A program made the translations under genes and the position numbers. Below the pieces are notes generated by a model that did no database searches, was not told where the DNA came from, and was given only the letters and a program-made list of their open reading frames with translations. 64,000 nucleotides of DNA, from the NCBI RefSeq assembly GCF_035994185.1, contig NZ_CP108538.1, forward strand, positions 2,604,001 to 2,668,000. Reading direction: 5' to 3'. This document shows positions 47,935 through 64,000 of this stretch, piece after piece (the first letter of the stretch is position 1; the number at the start of each line of letters is the position of its first letter). The DNA comes from Streptomyces sp. NBC_01217. Lineage in GTDB: Bacteria > Actinomycetota > Actinomycetes > Streptomycetales > Streptomycetaceae.

Positions 47935-48630
47935 CTACTCGGACGCCTGCGGACGCCCGGATTCCGTTGCCGGACTGACCAGGCCGCACTGATAGGCGAT
48001 GACGACGAGCTGCGCCCGGTCACGAGCCGCCAGCTTGGTCATGGCCCGGTTGACATGAGTTTTGGCGGTCAAGGGGCTGACGAAGAAATGTTCTGCGATC
48101 TCGTCGTTCGACAGCCCCAGTGCCGCCAGCCCCACGACATCGCGTTCCCGCCGTGTCAGGCACTCCAGCCGCTCGTGCACGTCCCCCGCGCACGGGTCCG
48201 GCTGCGCAAGAAAGCGCTTGATCAGCGCACGCGTCGCTGACGGGGACAGCAGTGCCTCGCCGGCGGCGATCGTGCGGACGGCGTCGAGGAGCTCCTCGGG
48301 CCTGGCCCCCTTGCCGAGAAAACCGCTCGCACCGGCGCGCAGCGCGTCGGCGACGTGCTCGTCGTCCTCGAAGGTGGTCAGGATGAGCACCTTCACCCCC
48401 GTGAGGTCCTCGGACTCACTGATGAGCCGTGTGGCCTCAAGGCCGTCCATCTCCGGCATGCGGATGTCCATCAGGACCACATCGGGGCTCTCCGCACGGG
48501 CCAGATCCAGTGCTTCCTGCCCATTGGACGCCTCCCCCACCGTCTCCATGTCGTCCGTGGAGTCGAACAGCATCCTGAAGGTACCCCGCAGCAGGGCCTG
48601 GTCATCGGCAAGCAGTACGCGAATCGTCAT
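47935..48630 (-). CDS. NarL/LuxR-type response regulator
   Basis: A 231-residue regulator. The receiver domain has the acidic DD near residue 10, the phospho-accepting Asp in VVLMDIRMPEMDG, TT in LILTTF and the Lys in FLGKGA. The LuxR-type helix-turn-helix follows (LTRRERDVVGLAALGLSNDEIAEHF...SPLTAKTHVNR). The ATG at 48630 has GAAGG upstream; 48636 is an alternative. It overlaps the kinase gene by 29 bases. Confidence 0.93.
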   Translation of the reverse strand: MTIRVLLADDQALLRGTFRMLFDSTDDMETVGEASNGQEALDLARAESPDVVLMDIRMPEMDGLEATRLISESEDLTGVKVLILTTFEDDEHVADALRAGASGFLGKGARPEELLDAVRTIAAGEALLSPSATRALIKRFLAQPDPCAGDVHERLECLTRRERDVVGLAALGLSNDEIAEHFFVSPLTAKTHVNRAMTKLAARDRAQLVVIAYQCGLVSPATESGRPQASE

Positions 48631-49840: not shown

Positions 49841-50187
49841 GTCACCCACGGTAGGGTCGACGGCCGCATCGGGCATCGTCTCGCGTGACACTCGCGTGAA
49901 GGCGTGCCTCGACCGGCGGTATCCGCCCGTTCGAGGAACGTCCGGCCGCGAACAGCGAATCCCCGGTGTTCGGTCGGCCCGGTCGTGGTCCACGACCGAA
50001 ATCTACGGTTCTACGGGGTGTCAGTTTCCCGTACTCGCCAGGCACTGGATGACGAGCTGTCGACAGCCGCTGTGATCGACTGGTCATCGGGCGTAGATCG
50101 GCGATCATCCAGCCCTGCTCGGCCATCCAGTGAGGCTTGCGAAGGTAATTGCATCACCCGGCTTCACCGTAGAAAGAAGACCTCGCA
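49841..50187. other. Intergenic region, no gene seen
   Basis: The region separates the kinase from the small plus-strand gene at 50188. It is less GC-rich than the flanks (AATCTACGGTTCTACGG near 50000). Short frames on both strands are not convincing. It marks the left limit of the peptide cluster. Confidence 0.4.
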
Positions 50188-50424
50188 ATGATCCTTTCAC
50201 TCTACAGTCTTCGCTCCGTCGTCAAGGGCGCCACCGCCCTCCTCTCCGCAGGCCTGCTGTCACTCGTCGGCTTCGCGGGCCACGGCACCTCCGGCTCCGT
50301 ACCGTCCGCCGGGTTCCAGGCCGGTTCCACTGTCTCGGTGTCCGTTGCGTCCGACACCGCGCCCACCACGGTCGACGACGGCGAGGACTGGAACAGTGAG
50401 GGTGGCCGCACGGTCCAGGGCTGA
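50188..50424 (+). CDS. Possible small secreted peptide
   Basis: A 78-residue frame with a plausible Sec signal (LRSVVKGATALLSAGLLSLVGFAGHG) and a short acidic mature part (TTVDDGEDWNSEGG). ATG at 50188 follows AAAGAAG. The last 165 bases overlap the 3' end of the convergent phosphotransferase frame, whose own last 55 residues look like low-complexity read-through, so this small gene may be the real occupant of the overlap. Function unknown. Confidence 0.4.
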   Translation: MILSLYSLRSVVKGATALLSAGLLSLVGFAGHGTSGSVPSAGFQAGSTVSVSVASDTAPTTVDDGEDWNSEGGRTVQG

Positions 50425-51603
50425 CGGGCCTGGTGCGGCATCGCCCGACCGACGCTTCGCCGCGCGGACGGCCAGCCCTTGGTCGTGCGCGGGCAGCTCG
50501 CACAGCCGCGTCAACCGGCCGGTAACCGCATCCAGCAGCATTTCCCCGCGCTGCTCCGTCCACGCCTCCGGCAACAGCGCCATGGGGATGCCCAATTCCC
50601 GGCAGAGAGCGGCGGAGTGCGACAGCGCGTTGCCGCGGCGCAGGAGAAGCCCGCCCACGTTGCGCAGGGACTCAAGCTCCGCGGCGGTCGGCATCGAATC
50701 GAGGACAACGATCTCCCCGGGGCCGATGGCATGCTTGCCGGCCGCGGCCACGGACCCGACCGCGTATCCCCGGGACAGGGGCGACACCGGCACCCCGCCG
50801 GGATGCGGCGCGGGCCGCAGGTGAGGCGGTGGAAGCGGGGCCGGGAACCCAACGATGTCACGCGACTGGAACACTCGCAGAGCACCGTTCTCCAGCCCCC
50901 ACTCCACGTCCTGCGGCCGGTGGAACAGTTGCTCCACCGTGGAGGCCAGACAGGTCAATAGGTCGGACAGAGTGCCCTCCTCCGGCATTTCCCATCCCTC
51001 TGGCCCCCACGCTGCATGTTGCCCTGGGCGGGGGATCACCCACGAGTGATCGCAGCCCAGCCCGGCGACGACTGGCGTACCGAGGCCCTCGGACGATTCC
51101 ACACGCATGGCGGGTTCGTCGGAGAGCGGGTCCCGGGTATACAGGACCCCGGAAGTGGCACATGCCGCCATTCGCTGCACGACGACGTTCATCTCAGGCT
51201 GCCGGGTGTCTCTCCGCAAGCGTCGGTACGCCTCGGCGTCAGCCGCGTGCAGCCCCTTTCGCACCCGGCGCACCGCTTCGACGACCTCGCGAGGTGTGCG
51301 GCGGTTCAGGTAGGAGTCGTACACCCCCGGCGCGGCGGCCAGGGGGCCGTCCTCACCCGTCGCAGAACTGCGGACAACCACCGCAGACCCCCTGGGGAAC
51401 CCGGTGAGCAGCAGGTTTCGTGTCTCGGCCAGGAATTCTCCCGGATCCAGTGCATCAAGGGTTTCGTGGCTGAGTACGAACGCCTTGGGCACCGGCAGAG
51501 CGGCTCGCAGCAGCGTCCGCAATCGCTCGGCCTTTCCGCCCAGCGGGCCTTCGCAGTGCTCCAGCGGCCGGTAGTGCCGTAACCCGTCGCCGTGACCGTC
51601 CAT
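50260..51603 (-). CDS. Compact PEP-synthase-like phosphotransferase (ATP-binding plus swivelling His domain)
   Basis: A 447-residue protein with parts of pyruvate phosphate dikinase/PEP synthase. Residues 20-250 form the ATP-grasp-like domain (LGGKAERLRTLL, VVVRSSATGED, SGVLYTRDP, QDVEWGLENGALRVFQSR). Residues 270-370 form the phosphohistidine domain, with His329 in RRGNALSHSAALCRELGIP. The PEP/pyruvate barrel is absent. This combination can move the beta-phosphate of ATP to a small acceptor, as rifampin phosphotransferase does. The acceptor may be a cluster intermediate or the antibiotic itself. The last 55 residues are Gly/Arg-rich and may not be part of the protein fold. Confidence 0.8.
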   Translation of the reverse strand: MDGHGDGLRHYRPLEHCEGPLGGKAERLRTLLRAALPVPKAFVLSHETLDALDPGEFLAETRNLLLTGFPRGSAVVVRSSATGEDGPLAAAPGVYDSYLNRRTPREVVEAVRRVRKGLHAADAEAYRRLRRDTRQPEMNVVVQRMAACATSGVLYTRDPLSDEPAMRVESSEGLGTPVVAGLGCDHSWVIPRPGQHAAWGPEGWEMPEEGTLSDLLTCLASTVEQLFHRPQDVEWGLENGALRVFQSRDIVGFPAPLPPPHLRPAPHPGGVPVSPLSRGYAVGSVAAAGKHAIGPGEIVVLDSMPTAAELESLRNVGGLLLRRGNALSHSAALCRELGIPMALLPEAWTEQRGEMLLDAVTGRLTRLCELPAHDQGLAVRAAKRRSGDAAPGPSALDRAATLTVPVLAVVDRGGRGVGRNGHRDSGTGLEPGGRYGAGGAVAREADE

Positions 51604-51733
51604 GGTTCTGCCCTCTCCATCGTCCGCTCGGTGGGATCCGAATCCAAGGGCTCGACCAGCCCCGTCGGTCCGATGAGCGACGAGGCCGGCCCGTCGCAGC
51701 GGTACAGGTGCTGCGCGGCGGGGAGCCGGAGGC

Positions 51734-52051
51734 TCAGCAGGCGTCGTGCGCCGGTGCGAGGGCCTCCACCCGCCGGGCGAGCTCCAAGTCCCTCTCGGTC
51801 ACCTTGCTGCCGGCGCAGTGCGTGGTGATCTTCAGGGCGACGGTGTCGTAGCCGAGGGTGAGGTCGGAGTGGTGGTTGAGCTCATCCTGGACCCGGGCGA
51901 TGTGAACGACCAGGGCCGTTGCCGCGGGATGCGAGGCGAGCCGGTAGGAACGGGTGAGCCGGTCGCCGTCGGGGGACCAGCCGGGTAGCTCGGCCAGCCG
52001 GTCCTCGATCTCCTTCTGCGACAGCTCGGCGGCCTTCTCACGCTCAGACAT
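51734..52051 (-). CDS. Pterin-4a-carbinolamine dehydratase
   Basis: A 105-residue enzyme that dehydrates 4a-hydroxy-tetrahydrobiopterin, regenerating the cofactor of aromatic amino acid hydroxylases. The signature is present: LPGWSPDGDRLTRSY, then HIARVQDELNHHSDLTLGYDTVALKITTH with the catalytic histidines. Its start overlaps the hydroxylase stop by 8 bases (52044-52051) without its own ribosome site, so it is translated by coupling. It confirms that the neighbouring hydroxylase uses a pterin. Confidence 0.93.
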   Translation of the reverse strand: MSEREKAAELSQKEIEDRLAELPGWSPDGDRLTRSYRLASHPAATALVVHIARVQDELNHHSDLTLGYDTVALKITTHCAGSKVTERDLELARRVEALAPAHDAC

Positions 52052-52772
52052 GGAGGGTCTGCAGCGCATTCACGGCCTCCTCGAGTTCGTCGAGCAGACC
52101 CTCCAGGCCCTCGTAGGACGGGGCGACAAAGTATTTCTGCTGGAGGTCGAAGATGTCGTAGTCCGTGGCGAAGACCTCGGAAACGGTCAAGGGGGTCTGG
52201 AGCGCGGGGTTATCCATGGCATTGGCCGCTTCCGCACTTGAGGTGAGGGTGGCTCCGCCGAAGATTTTGACACCGCTCGCTTCCTTGACGAGGCCGGTCT
52301 CGGTGGTGAACCAGTAGAAACGGGCCAGGGCCTTCATGACCGGTTCGTTGTCGAGGTGCCTCAGGGCGATTTCCGCGAGGCCGGTGAGGAAGTCGCCATA
52401 GGTGCGGTCGACGAGGATCGGCAGGTGACCGACCACGTCGTGGAAGAGATCGGGAAATTCCGCGAACCTCAGTTCGGACCGCTTGCGCATGGCGGGTGCG
52501 GTGGGGAAACGCTTGTCGTGCAGCATCCCGTAGAAGTGCGAGCCCGACAGCAGCCCCTCCACCGGATGCATGTGCCAGCCGGACAGATCGTAGAACCGCT
52601 TGTCCACGGCATGCATGCTCTCGATGTGCTCGCTCAGATCCAGTGCTTCGAACCCGGCTTGTGCCTGGGCGCAGCCATGCTGACGCAGTCGGGTGCGGAA
52701 GTCCTCCATGAGCAGGCTCCACGTGCCGCGGTCCTCATCATCGAAGCTGTCGGGCAGTTGGGCGTCGATCAC
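52044..52772 (-). CDS. Pterin-dependent aromatic amino acid hydroxylase
   Basis: A 242-residue monomeric hydroxylase. The iron ligands are His111 and His116 in DLFHDVVGHLP and Glu158 in FYWFTTETG. It is slightly shorter than typical bacterial phenylalanine 4-hydroxylases and lacks a regulatory domain. In peptide antibiotic clusters such enzymes can also hydroxylate phenylalanine at the meta position (PacX in pacidamycin) or act on tryptophan. Its place next to an adenylation protein suggests it prepares a hydroxylated aromatic building block. Which ring position is attacked cannot be read from sequence. Confidence 0.9.
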   Translation of the reverse strand: MIDAQLPDSFDDEDRGTWSLLMEDFRTRLRQHGCAQAQAGFEALDLSEHIESMHAVDKRFYDLSGWHMHPVEGLLSGSHFYGMLHDKRFPTAPAMRKRSELRFAEFPDLFHDVVGHLPILVDRTYGDFLTGLAEIALRHLDNEPVMKALARFYWFTTETGLVKEASGVKIFGGATLTSSAEAANAMDNPALQTPLTVSEVFATDYDIFDLQQKYFVAPSYEGLEGLLDELEEAVNALQTLHV

Positions 52773-52907
52773 TGGTCTCTCCTTGTGGTGTGCGCGAGTA
52801 TCTCGACGACCAGGTCTCAGAGGCCGCCGAGAGAACGGGAACCCAGCACTGCCCGTCTGCCTTGTTGCGCAGAGGAACAGCGGTGTCTGCCGGGGATTCG
52901 GTGAACC

Positions 52908-55337
52908 TCACGAAGAAGGTGAGGCGGGGAGCGACGCACGCTCCTCGGCTGTGAGAGCGGTGACCTCGCCGGCGATCGCCGCGGGAGGGGCAGCCGTGGG
53001 CACAGCGCGTTCGTGAAGCCATCGTGTCAGCCGCCCGATGGTCTTCTTCCTCAGCACGTCCTGGTTCCGCAACAGGTGTCGCAGGGCGGCACCGTCCGTC
53101 TTGCCGTGCACGGTGAGCGGCCAGTCGGGGACCGCGACGACCCTGTGCGGCAGCATGTATTCGGCGATCGCGGACGCCAGGTGTTCTCGGACGCCCTCCT
53201 CGTCAAGGGTGTCGCTTCGAAAGAAGACGGCGATCTCGTCCGTGCCATGGGAGGTGGTGAACGTTGTGGCGAAGCTGCTGATGACCTCGGGGTGGGCCCG
53301 AAGAGCGTCCTCCAGCTCCTTCAGGTCGATCCGGTAACCGTTGACCTTGACCTGGTTGTCCGACCGCCCCCGGAACAGCAGCTCGCCCTCCGGCGTCCAG
53401 GCCCCGTAGTCGCCGGTCCGGTAGAGCCGCGGACCGCCCGAGAAGGGATTCGGCACGAACTTTTCGCTCGTGAGACCCTCGTCGCCCACGTACCCGGCGG
53501 CGAGTCCCACGCCTGCGATGCAGATCTCCCCGACGACCCCCACGGGCTGCTGTCGCAGCCCGTTGTCCACCACGTAGATCTTCTTGTTGGCACTGGGTCC
53601 ACCGATTGGCACGGATGTCTCGCCCCGGTGCGGATCGATGCGGTGCAGGGTCGAGTTGATCGTCGCCTCGGTGGGGCCGTATCCGTTGTAGAGCGTCGTG
53701 TGCCGTGCGAGACGGGCGGCCAGCTCGGGGCTGATCGCCTCACCCGCGGAGACCAGAATGCGCAGACCGGCAAGCCGGGCGGGGTCGAGGAGCCTCAGAT
53801 AGGACGGGGTGATCGTGGAGACCGTGGCCTGGTGTTTGTCACTCCACGCCATGAGGGCGCCCGGATCACGGATCGTGTCCTCGTCGGCGATGACAAGTGC
53901 AGCGCCGGCGCACAGTGTTGAGAAGATGTCGAGCAGGAATCCGTCGAAGGAGGCTGCCATGAACTGTAGATAGCGGTCGGTGGGGACCATCGCGAAGCGC
54001 TCGATGTGATCGAGCACGGTGTTGCTCAAGCCCCGGTGCGCGACCGCCACACCTTTCGGCACACCCGTAGTTCCGGAAGTGAACACTATGTACGCGATGT
54101 CATCGGGTCCTGGGGCGTCGGGATCCCGCAGCCCCGGCATGCCGGTGTGTGCGTTTCCTGCCTTCTCGTGCGCGGCTTCCGCCTCCGGCGCCCCTGGGCC
54201 GGCATCCGGTGCGAGCACCAGCGACGGTAGCCCCAGGGCGGCTGTGGCGGGACCGGCAAGGCGCTCATGCACGAGGAGCGCCCGGGCGCCGACTTGCGCG
54301 AGGATGTGCCGCGTCTTGTCCTGTGGCCACTCCGGGTGGAGCGGAAGGTAGCGGGCCCCGGCTTCCATGATGCCGAGCACCGCCGTGACCGCGCAGTGGT
54401 CCCTGGCCGTCAGGACCGCGACGACGTCGCCCTCCGACACCCCAAGGCGCCTCCGCAGGTCCCGTGCGATGTCAAGGGAGTGACGACGGAGGTCGGCGAA
54501 GGACAGAATGCGTGACGCACTGATGACCGCCTCGGCCTCGGGGGCAAGGCGCACTCGTTCCCGGAACAGTTCCAGGACGGTGCGATCCGTTGAGAAGTCC
54601 TGCTCCGTGGCGTTGAAGCCGCGGACGGCCTCCTCCACGTGCTCGCGCACCACCTCCTCCACGGACGAGGCCGGTCGACCGCTGTCCTCGAACAGGCCGA
54701 TCAGGCTCATCAAGTGGGCGCCGATGCTGCTCCGGAACCACCCCGGAACCCGTCCACTGGGACTGCTGATCCGCAGTGTGTCCGTATCACGGCCGCCAAG
54801 GGTGATGGTCACGTCGTGGTCGACCGTCGTGGGCTCGGGGGAGCCGAGGCTCACGAGCACGTCGGCTCGCAGGGGCCGGTCCTTCAGGGTGGGCGGCCCG
54901 GGGAGGGATGAACCCTTGGCACCGTCGCGCAGGGCGGCCACGAGGTCCCGCACCTCCAGCAGTACGTCCCGGAGGGTGTTCCCGCGGGCGAACCGGACTA
55001 CCAGGGAGGCCGTGCCGGTGTGTCCGGGCATTCCTATGTCCGCAGCCGGCACGTCCAAGGCGACGGGACCGTCACCGTGGTAGCGACGCAGCAGGATGGC
55101 CACCACTGCGAGAAGGACATCGAGTGCTGTGTCGTCGTCACCGCGGGAGTACCGGGCGAGCACAGCGCCGGCCTCGGGGGACAGCGGAAGGTCGACACCG
55201 TCCTGGCCGGCGTGGCTGTCGTCCACCGCTCCTGAGAATACGCAGACGTCAAGAAGCCGAGGGACGTCTGATCCAGCGGGCTCGAATGTCTCCGCTGGGG
55301 TGCCGTATGGCGGTCGGTCTTCGGAGACCAGGGCCAT
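52908..55337 (-). CDS. NRPS protein: half condensation-like region plus adenylation domain, no carrier
   Basis: An 809-residue protein. Residues 50-225 resemble the C-terminal lobe of a condensation domain (LLAVVAILLRRYHGDG, TLRDVLLEVRDLV) but no HHxxxDG motif exists. Residues 240-760 are an adenylation domain: A3 YIVFTSGTTGVPKG (416-429), A5 NGYGPTEATI (551-560), A7 YRTGDYG, A8 NQVKVNGYRIDLKELE, A10 HGKTDGAAL with Lys746. My manual reading of the pocket residues is D-G-L-T-V-A-G-I-N-K; the T-V-A core resembles codes for Phe/Tyr/Trp. No carrier domain follows, so it must load a separate carrier, perhaps the one in the dioxygenase fusion. It probably needs the MbtH protein. Confidence 0.88.
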   Translation of the reverse strand: MALVSEDRPPYGTPAETFEPAGSDVPRLLDVCVFSGAVDDSHAGQDGVDLPLSPEAGAVLARYSRGDDDTALDVLLAVVAILLRRYHGDGPVALDVPAADIGMPGHTGTASLVVRFARGNTLRDVLLEVRDLVAALRDGAKGSSLPGPPTLKDRPLRADVLVSLGSPEPTTVDHDVTITLGGRDTDTLRISSPSGRVPGWFRSSIGAHLMSLIGLFEDSGRPASSVEEVVREHVEEAVRGFNATEQDFSTDRTVLELFRERVRLAPEAEAVISASRILSFADLRRHSLDIARDLRRRLGVSEGDVVAVLTARDHCAVTAVLGIMEAGARYLPLHPEWPQDKTRHILAQVGARALLVHERLAGPATAALGLPSLVLAPDAGPGAPEAEAAHEKAGNAHTGMPGLRDPDAPGPDDIAYIVFTSGTTGVPKGVAVAHRGLSNTVLDHIERFAMVPTDRYLQFMAASFDGFLLDIFSTLCAGAALVIADEDTIRDPGALMAWSDKHQATVSTITPSYLRLLDPARLAGLRILVSAGEAISPELAARLARHTTLYNGYGPTEATINSTLHRIDPHRGETSVPIGGPSANKKIYVVDNGLRQQPVGVVGEICIAGVGLAAGYVGDEGLTSEKFVPNPFSGGPRLYRTGDYGAWTPEGELLFRGRSDNQVKVNGYRIDLKELEDALRAHPEVISSFATTFTTSHGTDEIAVFFRSDTLDEEGVREHLASAIAEYMLPHRVVAVPDWPLTVHGKTDGAALRHLLRNQDVLRKKTIGRLTRWLHERAVPTAAPPAAIAGEVTALTAEERASLPASPSS

Positions 55338-55513
55338 GACAGTGGCTCCCTTTCAGGCTATGTGGATGGCGAGGGTGCGGGCGAGGCCTTCGGCCACTCG
55401 CGAGAACGCTTCTGGGCGGCGGTGATCACGTACCGGGAGACCGAGGGTCCGAGACGTCCAGGGAGCACCGGATGAGATGGCACAGTGTTCACGGCTGTTC
55501 ACGACAGGGGGCG

Positions 55514-56650
55514 TCATCGCAGTACCTGCATGGCCGCGGCGACGCCGCTGCCGGGCGCGACCGTGTGACCGAGCTCGGCCAGCCCCAGTTCGATCGCCGC
55601 TAGCGCGGTGAGGACGTCGAAGGCGTCGACGAACCCGCAGTGCCCCAATCGCAGCACCGTCCCCTGCAACGGGCCCTGCGATCCGGTGAGCTGGATGCCG
55701 TACCGCTCCAGCAGCAGGTTCACGAATGCGTCGCCATCGATGTCGGCGGGTAGTTTCACGGCGGTCACCGCCGCGTGCCGGTCCTCATCCGGGGAGAACA
55801 GCCGCAGCCCGAGGCCATGGACTCCGGCCCGGGCCAGACGGCCGAGCCGGACATGGCGGTCGAGCACGTTGTCCATGCCTTCCTCGTGGATCTGCCGCAG
55901 TGCCACGTCCAGCTGGTTGATCAGTGAGATGGCAGGCGTCCACGGGGTGCGCGGCACCTCGGCCTGCAAGGCCTCGCGGGCTTCGGTCCAGTCGAAATAG
56001 AAGCGGGGCAGCCGGGCCTGCCGGTGGAGTGCCCAGGCCCGCTCGCTGATGCTGGTGAAGGCCAGTCCCGGCGGTGTCATCAGGGCCTTCTGGCATCCTC
56101 CGACGACAACGTCGATTCCCCACTGGTCGGTACGCAGCTCGCAGGCACCAGCCCCGGAGGCGGAGTCGACCACGGTCACCAGCGGCGCGGTCGCGGCGGC
56201 GAAGCCGCGGATGTCGTTGACCATGCCGGTGGACGTCTCGCAGTGGACGCCGACGGCCACGCGCAGGCCAGGTGTGTCGGAGGCGGCCGCGGCGATGCGC
56301 TCCAGATCCCAGGGGTGGCCCCATTCATGCCGGACTGCGGTGACTTTGAGCCCGTAGGCCTCGGCCATGGCTGCCCAGCGTTCCCCGAACGCACCGTTGC
56401 TGACGACCAGCACACCGTCGCCAGAGGAGAGGAGGTTTTGCAGCGCGCCCTCGAAGGCTCCGGTCATGCTTGAGGTGAAGAGGAGCACGTCGTTGTCGGT
56501 GGCCAGGAGCCGCCGCAGATTCTCCAGCACCCGAGTGAACACCTCGGCGTACGCCTGGGTGCGTTCGTCCTCAAGGGGCAGCATCGCAGCCGCCGCAACG
56601 GGCGGGGGCAGAGGGGTTGGTCCCGGTACCATCAGCCGGTACTTCTTCAT
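55514..56650 (-). CDS. Class V aminotransferase (alanine/serine-glyoxylate type)
   Basis: A 378-residue PLP enzyme. VPGPTPLPPPVAAAAM is the family opening, DSASGAGACELRTDQWGIDVVVGGCQKALMTPPG contains the PLP lysine Lys188, and RLGHCGFV is near the end. Family members transaminate serine, alanine or glyoxylate; some cluster-encoded relatives make unusual amino acids. Serine would give hydroxypyruvate, a possible substrate of the 2-hydroxyacid dehydrogenase at 58967. It lies between the NRPS genes, 84 bases downstream of the dioxygenase fusion. Confidence 0.88.
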   Translation of the reverse strand: MKKYRLMVPGPTPLPPPVAAAAMLPLEDERTQAYAEVFTRVLENLRRLLATDNDVLLFTSSMTGAFEGALQNLLSSGDGVLVVSNGAFGERWAAMAEAYGLKVTAVRHEWGHPWDLERIAAAASDTPGLRVAVGVHCETSTGMVNDIRGFAAATAPLVTVVDSASGAGACELRTDQWGIDVVVGGCQKALMTPPGLAFTSISERAWALHRQARLPRFYFDWTEAREALQAEVPRTPWTPAISLINQLDVALRQIHEEGMDNVLDRHVRLGRLARAGVHGLGLRLFSPDEDRHAAVTAVKLPADIDGDAFVNLLLERYGIQLTGSQGPLQGTVLRLGHCGFVDAFDVLTALAAIELGLAELGHTVAPGSGVAAAMQVLR

Positions 56651-56734
56651 ATCCGGTCGTGTGCCTTTCCGTTGGTGGACGCCTTCTCGCAGCGCGCGGT
56701 GACAGGCGAAAGAGGAGACGGGGCCGTGTGGGCT

Positions 56735-58546
56735 TCAGAAGATGACGCGGGAGCCCGAGGCGGTCCGGGCGCCGCGGGACTTACGCAAGTCGCGGCTGAC
56801 GTTCGTCCTGCGCAGCCACCGGTCGCGGCCGTCGAAGCGCGCTGTGAATGGCTTCCTGCCATGCACAGCCTTGTAGTTGTCGATGAAGAGCACGTCACCG
56901 GGGCTGAGTACGATTTCGCTCAGCTTGTCGTCGATCTCCGCTGTCAGGGCGTCGAAGGCTGCCACTGCTGCGGGATCCCCGTCGACGCGGTCCATGAAGT
57001 ACGGGTCGAGCCGTCCGTACGGCTGGTTCGGGTCGCCGAAGAGCACAGGAACCTTCTCCGGCGCCGTGGCCATCCGCTCGACCCAGGCGAAGCTGCGCTG
57101 CAGCAGTTCCGCGGGGGCGTCCAGCCGGCTGTTGGTGTCCCGGTTCTTGGGCAGGTGTGACTCGTCCGGCCGGATGACATACCTCGGCTCGAAGAGGGTC
57201 GCGCGGATCTCCGAGGGGAGGTTCAGGTCGTCGAAGACCGCGTACGTTGTCTCCACCGCGTCCGGGTTCCGCAGGCACATGAGTCCCACGTACTCCGCGC
57301 GGAACGGGTGGAAGGCGTCCTCCGTGTGCCACCACAGGGGTGCCGAGGTCGAGGAGTTGATCTGCTCAAGCTCGTGCCCAGCGATGGGGATCACGTCGTG
57401 GATGAGCCGGCCGTGCTGTTGGGTCGCCCAACTGATGGGATCGCCCAGCAAGGAAGCGCACATCAGCAGGAATGCGTCCTCGCGGCGCGTGGCCCCTTGG
57501 CCCTCCGCCTGTCCTCCCCACTGCGCGGGAGTGTCCCCGATCTGCTGATCGTTCACCGGTAGGCCGGTGAACAGGCAGCCTCCGGCCGGCTCGTGGAGCC
57601 GGAATTCATTGGCTTGGCGACGTATGGTCCGCGGCATCTCCTGCGCACAGAGCACGACGTCCTCAAGGAAACCGTCGCTCTTGATCGTCGGATGGGCCGT
57701 CAGGAGCTGTCGAATCAGGGTTTCGACCTGCCCGATTTCATCGCCCGTCAGCTCAATGGTCCAGATACCGCCTCTGGTCCGTGTCTCGGCTGTTGCACGG
57801 TCCGGCCCGCTCTCACGGTGGACGGAAGCGTGGTGCACGACAGTCGCCGAGGACGGGTGGGACGGTCCGGTTGCCGGGTCCGCTGCTTCCATGCCGGAGT
57901 CCGGCCCCAGCAGGGCGAGGACGTCCTCCTCGGAGAGCTGGCCGATCTCGTCGAGAAGTTCGTCCATGCTCGGCGGCGCCGCATCCAGGGGTGGGGACGC
58001 CGCGGCAGACGCGCCTCGGGCGACAAGGTGTTCAGCCACATCCAGCACGGTGGGCAGATCGAAGAAGTCCGCGAGCGGCAGGTCGATGCCGTACCTCTCC
58101 CGTATCAGGACGGTGAGCCGAACGGCGAGGAGCGAGTATCCGCCGAGCTCGAAGAACTCGTCGTGCAGAGTGACATGGGCATCGGTGAATTCCCGCCCCC
58201 AGAGGGCGAGCAGGTCCGTGGCAACGACGTACGCCGGCAGTGCCGCCGAGTCCACTCCACCGTGTTCGTCCTGCGGGAGCTCGGCCAACTCGACGAAGGC
58301 GTCCGGGCTGTGCGGTGTGCCGGCGAGGTGTTTCCCGAGCTCCGCCTCATCGATCGACTGGCCCGGCCCAGCCGGAACCACATAGGCCACCAGACGTCGG
58401 TCCAGGGGCTCCTCCTCCCAGACCGCAAGGGCCCGAGCTATGTCCGGGTGCATCTGGAGGAGACTTTCGACGGCGCAGGTGGAACCATCCGTACGGTAAT
58501 TCATCCGACCCAACCATCCGTAGAGAGATTCATGACGCAATGCCAT
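56735..58546 (-). CDS. Fusion: adenylation C-subdomain remnant, peptidyl carrier domain, clavaminate-synthase-like dioxygenase
   Basis: A 603-residue protein. Residues 20-105 match the end of an adenylation domain, but the A10 lysine site reads HGGVDSAAL, so it cannot catalyse adenylation. Residues 110-178 are a carrier domain with the phosphopantetheine serine Ser138 in FFELGGYSLL. After an acidic linker, residues 265-600 are a TauD/clavaminate synthase-like Fe(II)/2-oxoglutarate oxygenase with ligands His407 and Glu409 (WWHTEDAFHP) and His562 (VHGRKPF), and arginines at 570-580 for 2-oxoglutarate. The enzyme resembles the VioC/AsnO group of amino acid beta-hydroxylases. The fusion suggests hydroxylation of an amino acid while tethered to the attached carrier. 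ATG at 58504 is an alternative start. Confidence 0.88.
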   Translation of the reverse strand: MALRHESLYGWLGRMNYRTDGSTCAVESLLQMHPDIARALAVWEEEPLDRRLVAYVVPAGPGQSIDEAELGKHLAGTPHSPDAFVELAELPQDEHGGVDSAALPAYVVATDLLALWGREFTDAHVTLHDEFFELGGYSLLAVRLTVLIRERYGIDLPLADFFDLPTVLDVAEHLVARGASAAASPPLDAAPPSMDELLDEIGQLSEEDVLALLGPDSGMEAADPATGPSHPSSATVVHHASVHRESGPDRATAETRTRGGIWTIELTGDEIGQVETLIRQLLTAHPTIKSDGFLEDVVLCAQEMPRTIRRQANEFRLHEPAGGCLFTGLPVNDQQIGDTPAQWGGQAEGQGATRREDAFLLMCASLLGDPISWATQQHGRLIHDVIPIAGHELEQINSSTSAPLWWHTEDAFHPFRAEYVGLMCLRNPDAVETTYAVFDDLNLPSEIRATLFEPRYVIRPDESHLPKNRDTNSRLDAPAELLQRSFAWVERMATAPEKVPVLFGDPNQPYGRLDPYFMDRVDGDPAAVAAFDALTAEIDDKLSEIVLSPGDVLFIDNYKAVHGRKPFTARFDGRDRWLRRTNVSRDLRKSRGARTASGSRVIF

Positions 58547-58747
58547 CGTAGGAATCTGCCGGAGAAGGCGTCAATCAGCCTTTCCGGGAATTACCTATCA
58601 GCGTTACGTGGAGGGTCTTAAACGTTTCTCTGAGACAGTCGTGCGCACTACGCCGTCGACAATCGGAATGCTGTCCGTAGTCTGGTGAACGGTGTCTGGA
58701 GTTGGCCGGCGCCATGTGCGAAGAAGAACTGAAGGAGAGGAATTCCC
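58547..58747. promoter_or_regulatory. Divergent promoter region in the peptide cluster
   Basis: A 201-base space between the minus-strand dioxygenase fusion and the plus-strand mbtH-like gene. It is notably richer in A and T than the surroundings (for example 58560-58680), which suits promoters for both arms. No operator recognised. Confidence 0.5.
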
Positions 58748-58966
58748 ATGGATCGTTCCACTGCACCTGCGGATTCAGAACGCTTCCTCGTGGTGCTCAA
58801 CAGCGAGGAGCAGTACTCGATCTGGCCCGCCCTGCGGCAGCCGCCGGCGGGCTGGCGGCCGGAGGGAAAGGAGGGCAGCCGTGAGGAGTGTCTGGAGCAC
58901 ATCGGCACGGTGTGGACCGATATGCGTCCCCGAAGTGTCCGACTGCACGACGAAGCAAGCCGCTAG
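58748..58966 (+). CDS. MbtH-like protein
   Basis: A 72-residue NRPS accessory protein. The family signature is complete: NSEEQYSIWPALRQPPAGW, then CLEHIGTVWTDMRPRSVRLH. MbtH proteins bind adenylation domains and are needed for their folding or activity. ATG at 58748 behind GAAGGAGAGG. Its TAG stop is followed without gap by the GTG start of the dehydrogenase gene, so the two are coupled. It should serve one or both adenylation proteins here. Confidence 0.96.
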   Translation: MDRSTAPADSERFLVVLNSEEQYSIWPALRQPPAGWRPEGKEGSREECLEHIGTVWTDMRPRSVRLHDEASR

Positions 58967-59908
58967 GTGGCTGGCGAGCACGTAGGGGTGCGCCTGTTCG
59001 GAGCGCCGCAGGCCATCGCGGACAGCATCGCCGCCTCCTGGCCGGAGGCCGTACTCCACGGGGAGGACACTGCGGCCGATTGTCGAGCTGCGATCGCGTG
59101 GCAGGCGGCTGAAGACGCACTGGTCGCGTTCCTGTCGGCGCACCCGGAGTGCCGCTGGTTGCACAGCACCGCGGCAGGCGTGCCCCCACGCGTGCTGCGG
59201 TGGGCGGAAGGGCGGTCCGTGGTGCTGACCAACGGGAGCGGTGCGCATGGTCGTGCGGTCGCTGAGCATGTACTGGCACTGCTGCTCGCCCACTACAAGC
59301 GGCTCCCCGCGCTGCTGAGCGATCAGCGGTCCCGGCGCTGGCAGCCCGCTGCGGCCGGGGAACTGTACGGCCGTCGGGCGGGCGTGGTCGGCCTGGGCGA
59401 CTTGGGCCGTACCACCGCGGCGTTGCTGTCGGCCTTCGGTGTCCGTGTCACGGGATACCGGCGCTCCGGCGCGGCGGTGCCCGAGGTCGACGCGGTCTTC
59501 GGCCCGGGCCGTCTGGCGGAGTTCCTCAGTGGCCTCGACATCCTGGTCCTGGCGGCACCGCTGACCCCGTCGACCAAGGGCCTCATCGGGGCTCAGCAGA
59601 TGGCGCTGCTCAGCCCCGGCGCAGTGCTGGTCAACGTTGGCCGGGGGCCGGTGGTGGACGAGGCCGCGCTGCTGGCGGCCCTGCGCTCGGGGCAGTTGTC
59701 AGGTGCCGCACTTGATGTGTTCGACACGGAGCCACCTCCTCCGCTCTCGGAGCTCTGGTCGGAGCCCGGTGTCATAATCAGCCCACACAGCGCAGACGCC
59801 ACTGCGGGGACGGACACCCGGTCGCTTGAACTGATCATCGACAACGTCGGTCGGTTCCGATCCGATGCCGACCTGCATAACGTCGTAGATGCGGCGCGTG
59901 GTTACTGA
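58967..59908 (+). CDS. D-isomer-specific 2-hydroxyacid dehydrogenase
   Basis: A 313-residue NAD-dependent dehydrogenase. GVVGLGDLGRTTAAL (around 139-153) binds NAD. The catalytic Arg is in NVGRGPVVDE, the Glu in DVFDTEPPPP and the His in ISPHSA. Members reduce 2-oxoacids to D-2-hydroxyacids or act on phosphoglycerate. The GTG start at 58967 directly follows the mbtH stop. In a peptide cluster it may supply a D-hydroxy acid unit, or reduce hydroxypyruvate made by the class V aminotransferase. The substrate is inferred only. Confidence 0.9.
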   Translation: MAGEHVGVRLFGAPQAIADSIAASWPEAVLHGEDTAADCRAAIAWQAAEDALVAFLSAHPECRWLHSTAAGVPPRVLRWAEGRSVVLTNGSGAHGRAVAEHVLALLLAHYKRLPALLSDQRSRRWQPAAAGELYGRRAGVVGLGDLGRTTAALLSAFGVRVTGYRRSGAAVPEVDAVFGPGRLAEFLSGLDILVLAAPLTPSTKGLIGAQQMALLSPGAVLVNVGRGPVVDEAALLAALRSGQLSGAALDVFDTEPPPPLSELWSEPGVIISPHSADATAGTDTRSLELIIDNVGRFRSDADLHNVVDAARGY

Positions 59909-60009
59909 CGGACCCATGGCAGCAGGGTCATCGGCCGAGCGGTGGCCGTCCGGTGTCGGACGGCCACCGCTGCCGGCCTCGGTGCCGGGAGTTGAGCAGT
60001 CAAGTCATC

Positions 60010-60350
60010 TCATTTGGCGAGTCGGCGGTAGCGGACGAGGGCGCACGCGACGCTGGTGAAGGCCGGGAAGTGGTCGGCCGTACCTCGTAGCCGCGGTGGA
60101 GCCGGCGGCATCCGGCGAGCTGGGCGGTGATCCGTTCGATCTTCCAGCGCTGCCGGCCAGCCGGGCGGAGGACTCGACGCCCTTGGGGGCGATGCCACGC
60201 TGCCGCCGACATCGCCGCATGTGAGCGTAGTCGTAGGTCCTGTCCGCGTAGAGTTTCGCGGACTTGCGTCGGCGCGGTCCGTGACGTGAGCGGGTCCGCG
60301 GCATGCCGCGGACCTTGGGTATCAGGATCTGACTGTCGTGGACTCGGAGT
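60010..60350 (-). pseudogene. IS5-family transposase remnant, frameshifted
   Basis: Three minus-strand frames carry successive pieces of one IS5-like C-terminal domain: KSAKLYADRTYDYAHMRR with RQRGIAPKGVESSARL (60170-60350), RQRWKIERITAQLAGCRRLHRGYE (60085-60165), then HFPAFTSVACALVRYRRLAK up to the stop at 60010. At least two frameshifts and loss of the N-terminal half make it inactive. It sits between two parts of the peptide cluster, and upstream to 60527 nothing else is recognisable. Confidence 0.75.
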
Positions 60351-60527
60351 TCCCGGCCACGAACTCTTACGCCGCCGGCCCTCCCCGATCCCTGTGCCGC
60401 CGTCGGCCACCGCCCTGCGGCTTCATCGGCGCAGGCGACACCACCCCGCTGGAACAGCTCCCCCGACTCGTCCTGCACCAGCCGCTCAACGCTCCCCACT
60501 GCCGATCCGGCCGAATGAGATGTTCTC

Positions 60528-61520
60528 TCAGGCCCCTCTGCGGGTCGGTGCCCGGTACGGGTCGACCTGGACCTGGTCGTAGCCGTGCTCGTTCTGCTCG
60601 CTCGCCGGCCGTCGCCGACCGGAGCGCACGAGTATCCGCTTGAGCCAGCGGTCGGTGCCGTCGTAGCGCGGCCGGAAGGCCACGCGGCCGTGTACAGAGG
60701 TGTCGTTGTCGATGATCAGCAGATCCCCGGGATCCAGCGGAACGACGAAGCCGGCGTCTTCAAAACGCTGGCCGAGCCGACCGTAGGCCTGATGGAAACG
60801 CCCGTCGTCGGTGAGCCAGCGGGAGTACGAGGGGTCGTACCGCACACGGAGTCCCTTGTCGTCTCCCCGCCACACCGTCGGCGCCCCCACAAGCCCGGGC
60901 CGGTCCCCCGCCGCCTCCCCGTAACTGGCGTCCGGCATCACCGCAGCCAGCGGCCGCGCCAGTTGATCGACGTCTTCCTCGGAGGGTGCGGCGCCGGAGA
61001 TCGTGGACAGTCGGCTGCCGATTCCGTCCGGGTTGCGCACACAGGCCAGCAGCAGAAAGTCGGCGCGCTGCGGGTGGAAGGCATCCTCACTGTGCCAGGC
61101 CAGAGGGACCACGCTGCTGGCGCCGACTTGGAGGTGCTCCTGCCCAGGGCTGGGCAGGATGTTGTGCACGATGCGGCCGTCTTGCTGGCCGGTCCAGCCG
61201 AAGACCCGGCCGAGCCGCGACGCAGTGAGCGCCAGGCCGATATCGAAAGCGGCGTTGATCCCGGGATCCGCCAGCGACCAGCGCAGCGGGGTCGGCCCTG
61301 GCTCGTCGTATTCCGCCAGCAAGCCCTTGACCACCCGGTACCCGACCGCGGGACTGGGAGGCCGGACCATCTCGTCCAGGGCAGCTCCCAGTTCGGCGGG
61401 AACCGCACCCATGGACAGGACGGTGTTCCCGGTTGCGCCTTCGGCGGCCAGAGCCCGCGAGACCCGCGCCAGCTCCACCTGAAGGACCCTTGACGTACGA
61501 CTTATCTCTGACACCGGCAT
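60528..61520 (-). CDS. Stand-alone clavaminate-synthase-like Fe(II)/2-oxoglutarate dioxygenase
   Basis: A 330-residue oxygenase of the TauD/clavaminate synthase group. The iron ligands are His143 and Glu145 in AWHSEDAFHP and His277 in NDTSVHGRVAF; RPRYDGTDRWLKR provides the 2-oxoglutarate arginine. The sequence VRNPDG after the first ligands is shared with the fused oxygenase, and both resemble VioC/AsnO-type amino acid hydroxylases. ATG at 61520 with AAAGG upstream; 61553 is an alternative. Divergent from the A-T didomain gene. It probably hydroxylates a second free or carrier-bound amino acid. Confidence 0.9.
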   Translation of the reverse strand: MPVSEISRTSRVLQVELARVSRALAAEGATGNTVLSMGAVPAELGAALDEMVRPPSPAVGYRVVKGLLAEYDEPGPTPLRWSLADPGINAAFDIGLALTASRLGRVFGWTGQQDGRIVHNILPSPGQEHLQVGASSVVPLAWHSEDAFHPQRADFLLLACVRNPDGIGSRLSTISGAAPSEEDVDQLARPLAAVMPDASYGEAAGDRPGLVGAPTVWRGDDKGLRVRYDPSYSRWLTDDGRFHQAYGRLGQRFEDAGFVVPLDPGDLLIIDNDTSVHGRVAFRPRYDGTDRWLKRILVRSGRRRPASEQNEHGYDQVQVDPYRAPTRRGA

Positions 61521-61849
61521 GGGAATGCCTTTCGAGATGAACACCAAAACCAATGGATTCGACCCCGCCGGTGCGCCAACACCCGACTGTCAGCCGACTG
61601 CCAGTATTTGGAATACAGAGTGGACCGATCAAGGGATTCCATGAGGGTTCCACGGACTCATTGCTACACCTTCCACTGATCGCCGGCGGACATCAACAGA
61701 ACGCGCAGAGCGACTCAACAGGGCGCACAGTTCGGATTGACTCTATTGCAAATTCACAGCTCCAGCGGGGTGCCGTTACTGTCTTCCTGGAAGGCAGAGC
61801 CGGGGTCGTACCCGGACGGCGAAGTGCCCCTGGCGAGAGGTGCCCGGAC
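61521..61849. promoter_or_regulatory. Divergent promoter region between dioxygenase and A-T didomain genes
   Basis: The 329-base space has AT-rich patches (ATTGACTCTATTGCAAATTC near 61736, and 61600-61660) unusual for this genome and fit for two promoters. The plus frame is open through it, but the composition is not coding-like and the GTG at 61850 is the better start for the didomain gene. Confidence 0.5.
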
Positions 61850-63694
61850 GTGATTGACGGCAATTCAGTCGAAAAAAGCGGCGGAATATCCCCGACCGGG
61901 ACCGGACTACTGGTGCCCGAAATCGACACTTCTTTGATACACGAACTGATTGCTGACCGCGCAGCGCGTCACCCGGAAGCTTGCGCGGTGACCTATGAGG
62001 GCCGCGGCATGACCTACCGAGAGCTCGATCGGCGGGCCGACGCGCTGGGCCGTGAGTTGCGGGTCCGCGGGGCCGGCGGACGGCCCCCGGTGGCTTTGCT
62101 GATGGAGAGGTCGCCGGAACTGATTGTGGCCATGCTGGCCGTGCTCAAGGCAGGCAGTGCCTACCTCGTGCTCAATCCGGGCGATCCGGACCAGCGGCTG
62201 GCCGAGCTGGCGCTCGACGCGAACCTGAGCCTGACCCTCACGAGTGAGCAGCTCTCCGGCCGAGTCCCGGCCGGCCTCGACAGCGTGGTTCTCGACGGCC
62301 TGCCGCTGTCGAACACCAGCACGCCGTCGACGCCGCGGGCGCGGCTCACCCCCGACCACCTGGCGTACGTCTGCTACACGTCGGGCTCAACGGGCGCCCC
62401 CAAGGGTGTCGGCGTGACCCATCGCGGCGTGGTGCGGCTGGTCCGCGAGGCCGGCTGGATGAGCTTCGGTCCCGAGGATGTCGTGCTGCACGCCGCGTCC
62501 CCGTCGTTCGACGCCTGCACGCTGGAGATCTTCGGAGCCCTGTGCAACGGCGGCCGACTGGTGATCCACCCGCCGGGCCGGATTGATCTTGAGGCGCTGT
62601 CCCGGACCATCATCGACGAGGGGGTCACCGTGGTGAACCTCCCCACCGGCGTGCTCCACCAGCTGGTTCAGTCCCGGCTCCCGGCCTTCGCCGGCCTGCG
62701 GCACGTCGTCACCGGTGGAGACGTGGCCTCGCCGGCCCTGGTCACCCGACTTCTGGAGGCCCATCCGCATCTGCTCTTCACCAACGGGTACGGCCCGACC
62801 GAGAACACGACGTTCACCACCTGCTGGACCAGCCGGACGCCGCCCACGACCGACGATGTGCCGATCGGGCAGGCCGTGGACGGCACGCGGGTCACCCTGC
62901 TCGATGCCGGTCTGCGCCCGGTAACGGACGGGACCGTGGCCGAACTCTACGCTTCGGGGGCGGGGTTGGCCTGGGGGTACCTTGGCCGTCCGGAGGCAAC
63001 CGCGGAGCGCTTCCTGCCCGATCCGGCCGGCCCTCCCGGTACCCGCATGTACCGCACCGGGGATCTGGTCCGGCAGCTGCCGGACGGTGGTCTGGGCTTC
63101 GTCGGGCGCGCTGACCGCCAGGTGAAGGTCCAGGGCTTCCGAATCGAGCCCGGATCGGTCGAAGCCGCGCTCGCGCAGCAGCCGGAGGTGGTCCAGGCCG
63201 CCGTGGTCGCCGAGCCGGGCCCTGACGGGCATCCACAGCTCATTGCGCACGTGGTGGCCGTCCCGGGCGCCGCCGACGACCTGGGCGCCGTGCTGCGCCG
63301 CAGGCTGCGGGACCGGCTGCCCGCGTACGGCGTTCCTCACGTCGTCCTGGTGCGTTCCGAGCTGCCCCTGGACCGCAACGGCAAGGTGGACCACGCGGCG
63401 CTGGCGACGCATAGACGTACGGTCCGCAACATCGGCACCGTGTACGTGCCGCCGTCGGACGAACTCCAGCGCGATCTGACGGAGTTGTGGGCGGAACTCC
63501 TGGACACCGAGCCGATCGGCATCGAGGACGACTTCTTCGACCTCGGTGGCCACTCGCTGCTCGCCGCCGAGCTGCTGGAGGCCCTTCACGCACGGTTCGA
63601 CGCGGACATCCCCGCGGCCACGCTGTATCTCCACTCGACCGTCGCAGAACTCAGCCTCGCAGTGCGCACGGCACAGCACAGGGAGGTGGCCTGA
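61850..63694 (+). CDS. NRPS adenylation-carrier (A-T) didomain protein
   Basis: A 614-residue protein. Adenylation motifs run in order: MTYRELDRRADALG, YTSGSTGAPKGV, NGYGPTENTT, YRTGDLVR, RADRQVKVQGFRIEPGSVE, and NGKVDHAAL with the catalytic lysine. A carrier domain follows, with Ser569 in DLGGHSLLAAEL. My reading of the pocket is D-A-L-N-V-G-G-T-F-K, which is the common valine-type code except for Asn where Trp is usual, so a Val-like or polar analogue is possible. GTG at 61850 behind GAGAGG. It is followed at once by a P450, the pairing seen in NovH/NovI and NikP1/NikQ. Confidence 0.92.
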   Translation: MIDGNSVEKSGGISPTGTGLLVPEIDTSLIHELIADRAARHPEACAVTYEGRGMTYRELDRRADALGRELRVRGAGGRPPVALLMERSPELIVAMLAVLKAGSAYLVLNPGDPDQRLAELALDANLSLTLTSEQLSGRVPAGLDSVVLDGLPLSNTSTPSTPRARLTPDHLAYVCYTSGSTGAPKGVGVTHRGVVRLVREAGWMSFGPEDVVLHAASPSFDACTLEIFGALCNGGRLVIHPPGRIDLEALSRTIIDEGVTVVNLPTGVLHQLVQSRLPAFAGLRHVVTGGDVASPALVTRLLEAHPHLLFTNGYGPTENTTFTTCWTSRTPPTTDDVPIGQAVDGTRVTLLDAGLRPVTDGTVAELYASGAGLAWGYLGRPEATAERFLPDPAGPPGTRMYRTGDLVRQLPDGGLGFVGRADRQVKVQGFRIEPGSVEAALAQQPEVVQAAVVAEPGPDGHPQLIAHVVAVPGAADDLGAVLRRRLRDRLPAYGVPHVVLVRSELPLDRNGKVDHAALATHRRTVRNIGTVYVPPSDELQRDLTELWAELLDTEPIGIEDDFFDLGGHSLLAAELLEALHARFDADIPAATLYLHSTVAELSLAVRTAQHREVA

Positions 63695-63696
63695 TC

Positions 63697-64000
63697 ATGA
63701 CGGTCTCCGACGATTACCAGGCCACCGCAGTGGTCGGCGGCGGCTGCCCGTACCAGCGCGGGGGTGCGGACCTTGCTGACCCTGCCCTGTACAGCGGGCA
63801 GGATCCGCACGCCGTGTGGACCGCGCTGCGTCAGCACGACCCGGTGAGCCGGCATGTCCTGGATGGGACGCCTTACTGGTCGGTCACCCGTTACGCGGAC
63901 GCCGACGCAGTCCTGCGCAACCACGCGACGTTCACCTCCGAGCAGGGAACGCTGCTCTATCTGCTCGGCCGCGGTGACCCGGCAGGTGGCCACCAGATGG
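63697..64000 (+). CDS. Cytochrome P450, N-terminal part (runs off window)
   Basis: About 101 residues are visible: CPYQRGGADLADPALYSGQDPHAVWTALRQHDPVS, then YWSVTRYADADAVLRNHATFTSEQGTLLYLLG and DPAGGHQM. This opening is typical of bacterial P450s and especially of the CYP163-like beta-hydroxylases of carrier-bound amino acids (NovI, NikQ). The ATG at 63697 comes 2 bases after the didomain stop, with GGGAGG upstream, so it is coupled to it. The heme-binding cysteine lies beyond the window. Confidence 0.87.
   Translation, partial: MTVSDDYQATAVVGGGCPYQRGGADLADPALYSGQDPHAVWTALRQHDPVSRHVLDGTPYWSVTRYADADAVLRNHATFTSEQGTLLYLLGRGDPAGGHQM

Follow-up and report, generated by a model that had tools for sequence, protein, structure and literature searches.

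What peptide is assembled by a set of nonribosomal peptide synthetase (NRPS) genes that contains two adenylation (A) proteins, two carriers (T) and four oxygenases, and no complete condensation (C) or thioesterase (TE) domain? This question is raised by the right end of a 64,000-nucleotide window of the 9.03-Mb genome of Streptomyces sp. NBC_01217 (G000:C1:2604001-2668000; "the window" is this whole stretch). A preliminary description of the window had listed these parts together with an MbtH-like protein, an aminotransferase, a D-hydroxyacid dehydrogenase and a phosphotransferase, and all of them are present (Table 1). The oxygenases are a pterin-dependent hydroxylase, two VioC/clavaminate-type dioxygenases, one of them the second domain of a fused protein, and a cytochrome P450. 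Its observation that the window holds no complete condensation or thioesterase domain also held, as we found there a single partial condensation-like stretch (E 0.015) without the HHxxxDG motif.

The description had proposed extending the contig to the right, and the parts absent from the window are found in that direction. In numbering continued from the window (adding 2,604,000 gives G000:C1 positions), complete condensation and thioesterase domains lie directly beyond its edge, at 64993-83009. They comprise three condensation domains, each with HHxxxDG, a terminal thioesterase and a second thioesterase, and are accompanied by a starter module, a second P450, a third dioxygenase, a carbamoyltransferase and the capreomycidine synthase VioD. 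The right end of the window is the left half of a single NRPS cluster, at approximately 51.7-83.0 kb, and it is the capreomycidine synthase, the carbamoyltransferase and the starter module, all outside the window, that give the cluster its meaning. Nor is it "dispersed", as had been suggested: it is one block, of which 60528-83004 aligns to Streptomyces tendae strain 139 as a single 22.6-kb stretch with 84.7% nucleotide identity. The earlier expectation is supported that hydroxylated amino acids are joined into a short peptide on parts some of which are free-standing. We give somewhat better than an even chance to a specific form of it, in which the cluster makes a short peptide, probably of four residues, that would begin at its N-terminus with the α-hydroxy acid of capreomycidine, a cyclic arginine.

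The A domain of the starter module carries this reading. Position 235 of an A domain is normally an aspartate that holds the α-amine of the substrate. We derived ten-residue codes by aligning A domains to a GrsA segment; the domains had been located with a motif search, which may overlook some (one genome, G373, yielded one code). The starter code, SAEEVGVATK, retains an acidic pocket and has serine in place of Asp235. No other code in the cluster has the acidic pair, and none of them represents a capreomycidine domain with both Asp235 and the acidic pocket. The same ten residues recur in S. tendae, in S. calvus T3018 and in a third genome, G093, with overall identity to our domain as low as 49%. 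The enzymes needed to replace an amine by a hydroxyl, a class V aminotransferase (AT5) and a D-2-hydroxyacid dehydrogenase (D2HDH), stand beside the starter domain gene. To judge from its residues, the starter has what looks like a pocket for capreomycidine in which the α-amine is no longer held.

The serine and the aminotransferase occur together elsewhere. Among 392 Streptomyces genomes, four, ours included, have an AT5 match of at least 50% identity; at E 1e-60 the number is 22, with the remaining 18 at 42% or less, and a search of 394 genomes drawn from the class returned our genome only. Five AT5 clusters were seen: ours, that of S. tendae and, as more distant relatives, those of S. calvus T3018 (G211), G093 and Streptomyces sp. 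SID14436. Each of the five has GntD, VioD, AT5 and D2HDH, together with a starter domain that carries Ser235 and has a carrier behind it. Ser235 thus occurs with VioC/VioD partners in five of five, a count limited to the clusters seen. VioD itself has matches in 23 of the 392 genomes, and we read the 16 clusters with at least 48% identity, leaving out seven at 43-45%. Twelve of the 16 lack AT5 (34-40 kb read in each), and none of their 43 codes has Ser235. Five of these twelve instead contain DVEEAGVCTK or DVEEIGVVSK, codes that combine this acidic pocket with a retained Asp235. As no other acidic code of this kind was read in the five, we infer that DVEE specifies capreomycidine. The G093 cluster (L035, L036) holds both SAEEVGVATK and DVEELGVVTK, and may employ two forms of capreomycidine together, the hydroxy acid and the amino acid. 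Separately, A domains of capreomycidine-type clusters in G304 (L105) and G350 (L102) carry approximately 390-400 extra residues near the C-terminal subdomain.

A profile (A2) was built from four starter domains, with SID14436 left out as a test case. The SID14436 contig held the predicted domain, at 616.7 bits versus 406.2 for that genome's next domain, with the code SAEGLGVATK. Across the 392 genomes the four building domains scored 882-1012 bits and the next match 540; the next four matches are DVEE domains of VioD clusters. Only the 30 of these matches that had loci were coded. Ser235 occurs in 6 of 31 coded domains, namely the five AT5-cluster starters and one starter-type domain from G043 (L148-L149 and L131, G043:C4, approximately 233195-234706). 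In a tree of 86 A domains, whose bootstrap had not settled, the five Ser235 starters form one clade (100/94) nested in a group of 12 rows (93/90) that also takes in the DVEE domains and the one from G043. CmnG, the capreomycidine domain of the tuberactinomycins, which a review of A domains assigns to L-Cap (PMC11253843), belongs to a separate lineage; a close homologue in G018 reads DPQDVGIVNK.

The genes can be arranged into a candidate pathway. The GntD/VioC-family hydroxylase would convert arginine to 3-hydroxyarginine and VioD would close the ring to capreomycidine, both families scoring above curated cut-offs. AT5 would then strip the α-amine, leaving a keto acid for D2HDH to reduce; the resulting hydroxy acid would be loaded by the starter A-T-C, whose code is observed. 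The pterin hydroxylase would make hydroxyphenylalanine, and the stand-alone A domain of 52908-55337 would load phenylalanine or its hydroxylated form in trans onto the GntD-fused carrier of 56735-58546. The A-T didomain would charge a valine-like residue for hydroxylation on the carrier by the adjacent P450 (P450a), and the cysteine-type thioesterase would hand this residue to C-A*-T, a module whose loss of the catalytic lysine is observed. A dioxygenase distantly like HilA and the carbamoyltransferase probably put a carbamoyloxy group on it. The C-A-T-TE protein (code DAFSVIGVWK) would add the fourth and last residue and release the chain. The three C domains would make three bonds, with every working A domain, carrier and C domain used once in the order and length proposed.

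The middle of this scheme draws on a recurrent arrangement. The A-T code, DALNVGGTFK, resembles valine codes; A-T proteins beside the same P450 and thioesterase read DAWWVGGTFK in S. calvus, DVFWLGGTFK in G312 and DVFWLGGTYK in G176. The polar Asn278 is seen in our cluster and S. tendae alone, and among the five AT5 clusters these two are also the only ones with the HilA-like dioxygenase and a close carbamoyltransferase. Because all three features are confined to the same two clusters, they suggest a carbamoyloxy or hydroxy valine-type residue, and by analogy P450a would hydroxylate it while tethered. The thioesterase beside the A-T and P450 has a cysteine nucleophile (GHCSA or GHCGS) in six of six clusters; the nearest solved thioesterase has GHSMG at this site. 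Serine is kept in another thioesterase of S. calvus, SID14436, G312 and G176, and two more cysteine-type thioesterases occur in SID14436 and G312. In syringomycin and coronamic acid biosynthesis, cysteine-type proteins of this fold (SyrC and CmaE, respectively) act as aminoacyl shuttles. Five of the six clusters include a carrier that lacks a functional A domain of its own: ours and S. tendae have C-A*-T with Lys517 replaced by Thr, an A-less carrier ends the A-T-C-T protein of S. calvus and of SID14436, and G312 has a broken A domain. By analogy with the shuttles, the cysteine thioesterase probably loads this lysine-less module of our cluster, C-A*-T.

Several observations weigh against this picture. 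Ser235 is not exclusive to AT5 clusters, since the A-T-C of G043 (SVEQVGEVSK) stands in an unrelated cluster without AT5 or VioD. The SID14436 starter has Gly for Glu278, and the G093 dehydrogenase is only 34% identical to ours. AT5 is part of a wider family of glyoxylate-type aminotransferases: 36 of 120 listed relatives (of 2333), ours included, reach at least 60% identity, and among the matches listed those at this level occur in S. griseus, Kitasatospora, Nonomuraea, Actinoplanes and others. In the review, the two α-hydroxy-acid A domains discussed have Ala (engineered) or Gly at 235, not Ser, an α-keto-acid domain has Ile, β-amino-acid domains keep Asp, and the Phe-activating McyG domain has Val (PMC11253843). 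Because McyG activates Phe with Val there, loss of Asp235 is not proof of amine loss. On the carrier side, 40 kb read in G176 yielded no carrier lacking a working A domain. The SID14436 cysteine thioesterase and P450a stand beside a short carrier-like match and not beside that cluster's A-T (DAFFIGAVFK), which is next to another P450. Our cluster is without the terminal A-less carrier of the S. calvus and SID14436 A-T-C-T proteins, so its module order is a model. Finally, the ratio of nonsynonymous to synonymous substitution rates (dN/dS) between our cluster and S. tendae is 0.27 for the lesioned A* domain, versus 0.19-0.38 for the other A domains, and relaxed selection is not clear; free drift of A* is only partly borne out, the code differing at two of nine positions.

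Some of these points lend themselves to other explanations. The aminotransferase and dehydrogenase could serve another building block or run in reverse, with the Ser235 domain taking capreomycidine or an unrelated basic acid. The nearest named families of AT5 use glyoxylate or form amino acids from keto acids, and both McyG and the G043 domain show that Asp235 can be missing in other settings, the former with an amino acid substrate (PMC11253843) and the latter without AT5. We nevertheless consider this unlikely, as Ser235 is found in all five AT5 clusters with VioC/VioD and in none of the twelve VioD clusters that lack AT5. A little less probable still is a starter that activates the α-keto or des-amino acid of capreomycidine, with the dehydrogenase acting later or elsewhere and the rest as described. 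Keto-acid A domains also lose Asp235, according to the same review (PMC11253843), so the code cannot separate keto from hydroxy acid, and the weak G093 homologue leaves room for such a starter. Against it, all five AT5 clusters include D2HDH or a homologue of it (34-83% identity in the four besides ours), and Pfam finds no ketoreductase in the starter module.

It is improbable to about the same degree that the cluster makes a peptide already described that went unmatched. Our comparison covered open-access literature, which leaves some room for this; in that literature we found no named product that matched the gene set, in agreement with the initial impression that it was unfamiliar, and neither hydroxycapreomycidine nor desaminocapreomycidine. 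Faulknamycin and omicsynin/chymostatin differ in size or release, and viomycin/capreomycin and muraymycin also differ from the product read here. That the genes are unrelated neighboring operons is very improbable: they do lie on both strands, yet a gene-order comparison, as had been recommended, showed the block order kept in S. tendae and the core set recurring in S. calvus, G093 and SID14436, which largely refutes it. Returning to the hydroxy-acid starter, we rate as about an even chance the fuller proposition that it is undescribed among NRPS systems, that its unit would be supplied by a dedicated aminotransferase/dehydrogenase pair, and that its A domain would have evolved from a capreomycidine domain by loss of Asp235. 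If this is correct, the SAEE...ATK code with the AT5/D2HDH pair becomes a sequence rule for finding and predicting unknown cyclic-guanidine hydroxy-acid peptides, and the five clusters seen would mark out a small actinomycete peptide family.

In its aromatic amino acid hydroxylase the cluster contributes a third residue type, whose regiospecificity the known rules do not give. Out of 5.8 billion searched, six proteins, ours included, match it at E 1e-30. In one study, two positions distinguish the classes, being Phe/Gly in 4-hydroxylases and Cys187/Thr202 in 3-hydroxylases (PMC7027792). Mapped by alignment to solved 4-hydroxylases, our enzyme (Thr159/Ala174) and five aligned relatives have Thr/Ala; the alignment of relatives omitted our own protein (P0001) and P0002, which is 81% identical. 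Our enzyme does not fit the phenylalanine 4-monooxygenases: there is no Phe/Gly pair and the scores fall under the family cut-offs (191.7 bits versus 247; 144.1 versus 264.75). To go by these residues, neither the 4- nor the 3-hydroxylase rule applies. We would guess, weakly, at meta-hydroxylation, because the Phe3H variant C187S stayed fully meta and T202A gave 67% meta in the same study (PMC7027792). The stand-alone A domain has an aromatic-like code, DGLTVAGINK, and the tree, again with unsettled bootstrap, joins it weakly to GrsA (88/74, long branch).

The closest relative of the cluster was found with the fused carrier-hydroxylase protein as query. At E 1e-80, 31 of the 392 Streptomyces genomes have a match; besides our own, only G027, which is S. 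tendae strain 139, is close over the full length (80%). G385 has a near full-length match at 40% that crosses a stop, in a region that is an unrelated NRPS, and was rejected; the others match the hydroxylase part only. In S. tendae the cluster lies on a 408-kb plasmid (NZ_CP043960.1, 211253-248575), and 21 of 25 proteins queried matched there with 73-91% amino acid identity. From the aromatic hydroxylase through the last C-A-T and the LuxR regulator the order is the same, inverted as a block, and the genes appear under matching names in the public annotation, "capreomycidine synthase" and "GntD" among them. Because this copy is on a plasmid with IS5 transposases on both sides, the cluster is probably mobile. 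Two codes differ (DLTKVGEVGT and DALNIGGTFK), and the BTAD regulator and methyltransferase are at the other end. No match at E 1e-15 was obtained in the G027 region for the carbinolamine dehydratase, which likewise had none across the 70 kb read from S. tendae, for the phosphotransferase or for a two-component pair.

The dN/dS values of 0.12-0.40 across 21 gene pairs between our cluster and S. tendae indicate that the genes are kept and are not chance open reading frames. Two segments are looser, at 0.56 each: the N-terminal part of 52908-55337 (its A domain has 0.22) and the A-subdomain remnant ahead of the carrier in 56735-58546. These are therefore probably vestiges of a split module. The alignments of 52908-55337 and 61553-63694 each cross one stop in the S. 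tendae DNA; both exceed the length of the genes annotated there and so probably extend past the ends of those genes. The S. tendae orthologue of 61553-63694 is annotated shorter, at 587 amino acids, and the true start of our gene, as predicted from sequence, probably lies further right.

Membership of the biosynthetic genes, as first described, is borne out by the order kept in S. tendae. That of the phosphotransferase at 50260-51603 appears doubtful, because only decayed pieces persist at that place in S. tendae; it is a compact phosphoenolpyruvate (PEP)-utilizer-type protein with only ATP-binding and His domains. Directly to the left of the cluster, at 47935-49993, is a two-component pair, by sequence a LuxR-type response regulator and a HisKA_3 kinase, which has no match beside the S. 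tendae cluster. The phosphotransferase and these two genes alone look separate from the pathway. To the right of the cluster, pieces resembling a mutator-type transposase were read in L005 at 11917-13191 (continued numbering 87917-89191). The S. calvus T3018 cluster (L034, L030, L031) is a larger sister, with apparent 2,3-diaminopropionate (Dap) synthesis genes (SbnA/SbnB-like), the codes DVFSVAAVYK, DFWNVGMVHK and DDRHVSLIDK, and an A-T-C-T starter protein.

Table 1. Genes of the cluster and its flanks, in window numbering continued to the right (aa, amino acids; MFS, major facilitator superfamily)
Feature	Position	Strand	Observations
PEP-utilizer-type phosphotransferase	50260-51603	-	447 aa
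Pterin-4a-carbinolamine dehydratase, probable partner of the aromatic hydroxylase	51734-52069	-	111 aa; Pfam Pterin_4a 2.6e-23; NCBIfam NF002017 101.4 bits, cut-off 80
Pterin-dependent aromatic amino acid hydroxylase	52044-52772	-	242 aa; Biopterin_H 5.8e-29; Thr159/Ala174 at regiospecificity positions
Stand-alone adenylation protein behind vestigial condensation part	52908-55337	-	AMP-binding 2.5e-77; code DGLTVAGINK; no carrier of its own; no HHxxxDG in the vestigial stretch (E 0.015)
Class V aminotransferase AT5	55514-56650	-	Relative of L-aspartate-glyoxylate aminotransferase BhcA; NF045640 287 bits, below cut-off 650
Vestigial A subdomain, carrier (GGYS) and arginine/enduracididine-type β-hydroxylase (GntD/VioC family)	56735-58546	-	PP-binding, TauD; NF041363 (GntD) 456 bits, over cut-off 345; VioC model 369, below cut-off 418.6; HTED iron motif; solved relatives include CmnC, L-arginine β-hydroxylases
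MbtH-like protein	58748-58966	+	72 aa; no NCBIfam match; S. tendae orthologue (89% identity) annotated MbtH family
D-2-hydroxyacid dehydrogenase (D2HDH)	58967-59908	+	2-Hacid_dh_C 1e-50
Second VioC-family dioxygenase	60528-61544	-	TauD 1.1e-12; VioC/GntD families below cut-off; orthologues 79% in S. tendae, 57% in S. calvus, none close in G093, SID14436
A-T didomain, valine-like with polar Asn278	61553-63694	+	Code DALNVGGTFK
Cytochrome P450a	63697-64977 (window ends 64000)	+	Heme motif FGIGPHYCVG; beside A-T didomain
Thioesterase fold with GHCSA	64993-65808	+	Pfam Thioesterase 2.9e-19
Carbamoyltransferase	65802-67376	+	Carbam_trans_C 9.2e-55, Carbam_trans_N 2.8e-22; NodU model under cut-off
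Dioxygenase distantly like HilA	67435-68274	+	NF041274 102.8 bits, cut-off 500; no Pfam match, no PDB relative by sequence
Starter A-T-C	68453-71821	+	Code SAEEVGVATK
MFS transporter	71773-73173	+	
P450b	73173-74426	+	
C-A-T-TE	74432-78472	+	Code DAFSVIGVWK; motif GWSMGG
Capreomycidine synthase VioD	78469-79593	+	TIGR03947 489.9 bits, cut-off 390.9
C-A*-T	79590-83009	+	Lys517 to Thr; unusual A8 stretch
LuxR-type regulator	83817-84626	-	
Methyltransferase	85442-86320	-	
BTAD regulator	89729-93340	-	

How does the cluster compare with known systems? The tuberactinomycins viomycin and capreomycin share with it a VioC-family hydroxylase, VioD and partly free-standing NRPS parts. They differ in activating capreomycidine as an amino acid through a CmnG-type domain; we know of no AT5/D2HDH pair in their pathways, and no Dap genes were seen in our cluster. 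Faulknamycin/cyclofaulknamycin and omicsynin/chymostatin are, like the proposed product, capreomycidine-containing short peptides from Streptomyces. The former are hexapeptides and the latter ureido tetrapeptide aldehydes released by a reductase domain (PMC8399532, PMC12783407), whereas our cluster ends in a thioesterase. Biffamycin A, faulknamycin, omicsynin and chymostatin were all rejected as products on gene content, size or release. The gene set of GE81112, a tetrapeptide with a carbamate, includes to our knowledge no capreomycidine or pterin genes.

The preliminary description had pointed to uridyl-peptide or aminocoumarin-type chemistry. With the uridyl-peptide Phe 3-hydroxylase (PacX/Phe3H) the cluster shares a small pterin-dependent aromatic hydroxylase within an NRPS cluster, but ours has Thr/Ala in place of Cys187/Thr202, and none of 25 reading frames scanned with Pfam is a nucleoside- or uridine-modifying gene; we rejected the uridyl-peptide reading on these grounds. 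The aminocoumarin-type logic is partly supported, through the row of free-standing A-T, P450 and thioesterase. As in aminocoumarin and nikkomycin β-hydroxylation, an A-T didomain (61553) is followed directly by a P450 (63697) and a thioesterase-fold protein (64993). It differs from these systems in its valine-like code, its cysteine-type thioesterase and a full NRPS with an A-Lys-less module as the recipient. These last features recall SyrC and CmaE, where a cysteine thioesterase-like fold stands beside a free-standing A-T and a carrier-acting oxygenase and serves a module without A activity of its own; our cluster has a P450 where the shuttle systems have a halogenase. If our reading is correct, the cluster joins a hydroxy-acid starter to a Thr/Ala aromatic hydroxylase and a cysteine-thioesterase shuttle that would supply the module whose A domain is dead. 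As predicted from its domains, the architecture for both aminocoumarin/nikkomycin-like hydroxylation on a carrier and SyrC-like shuttling is in place.

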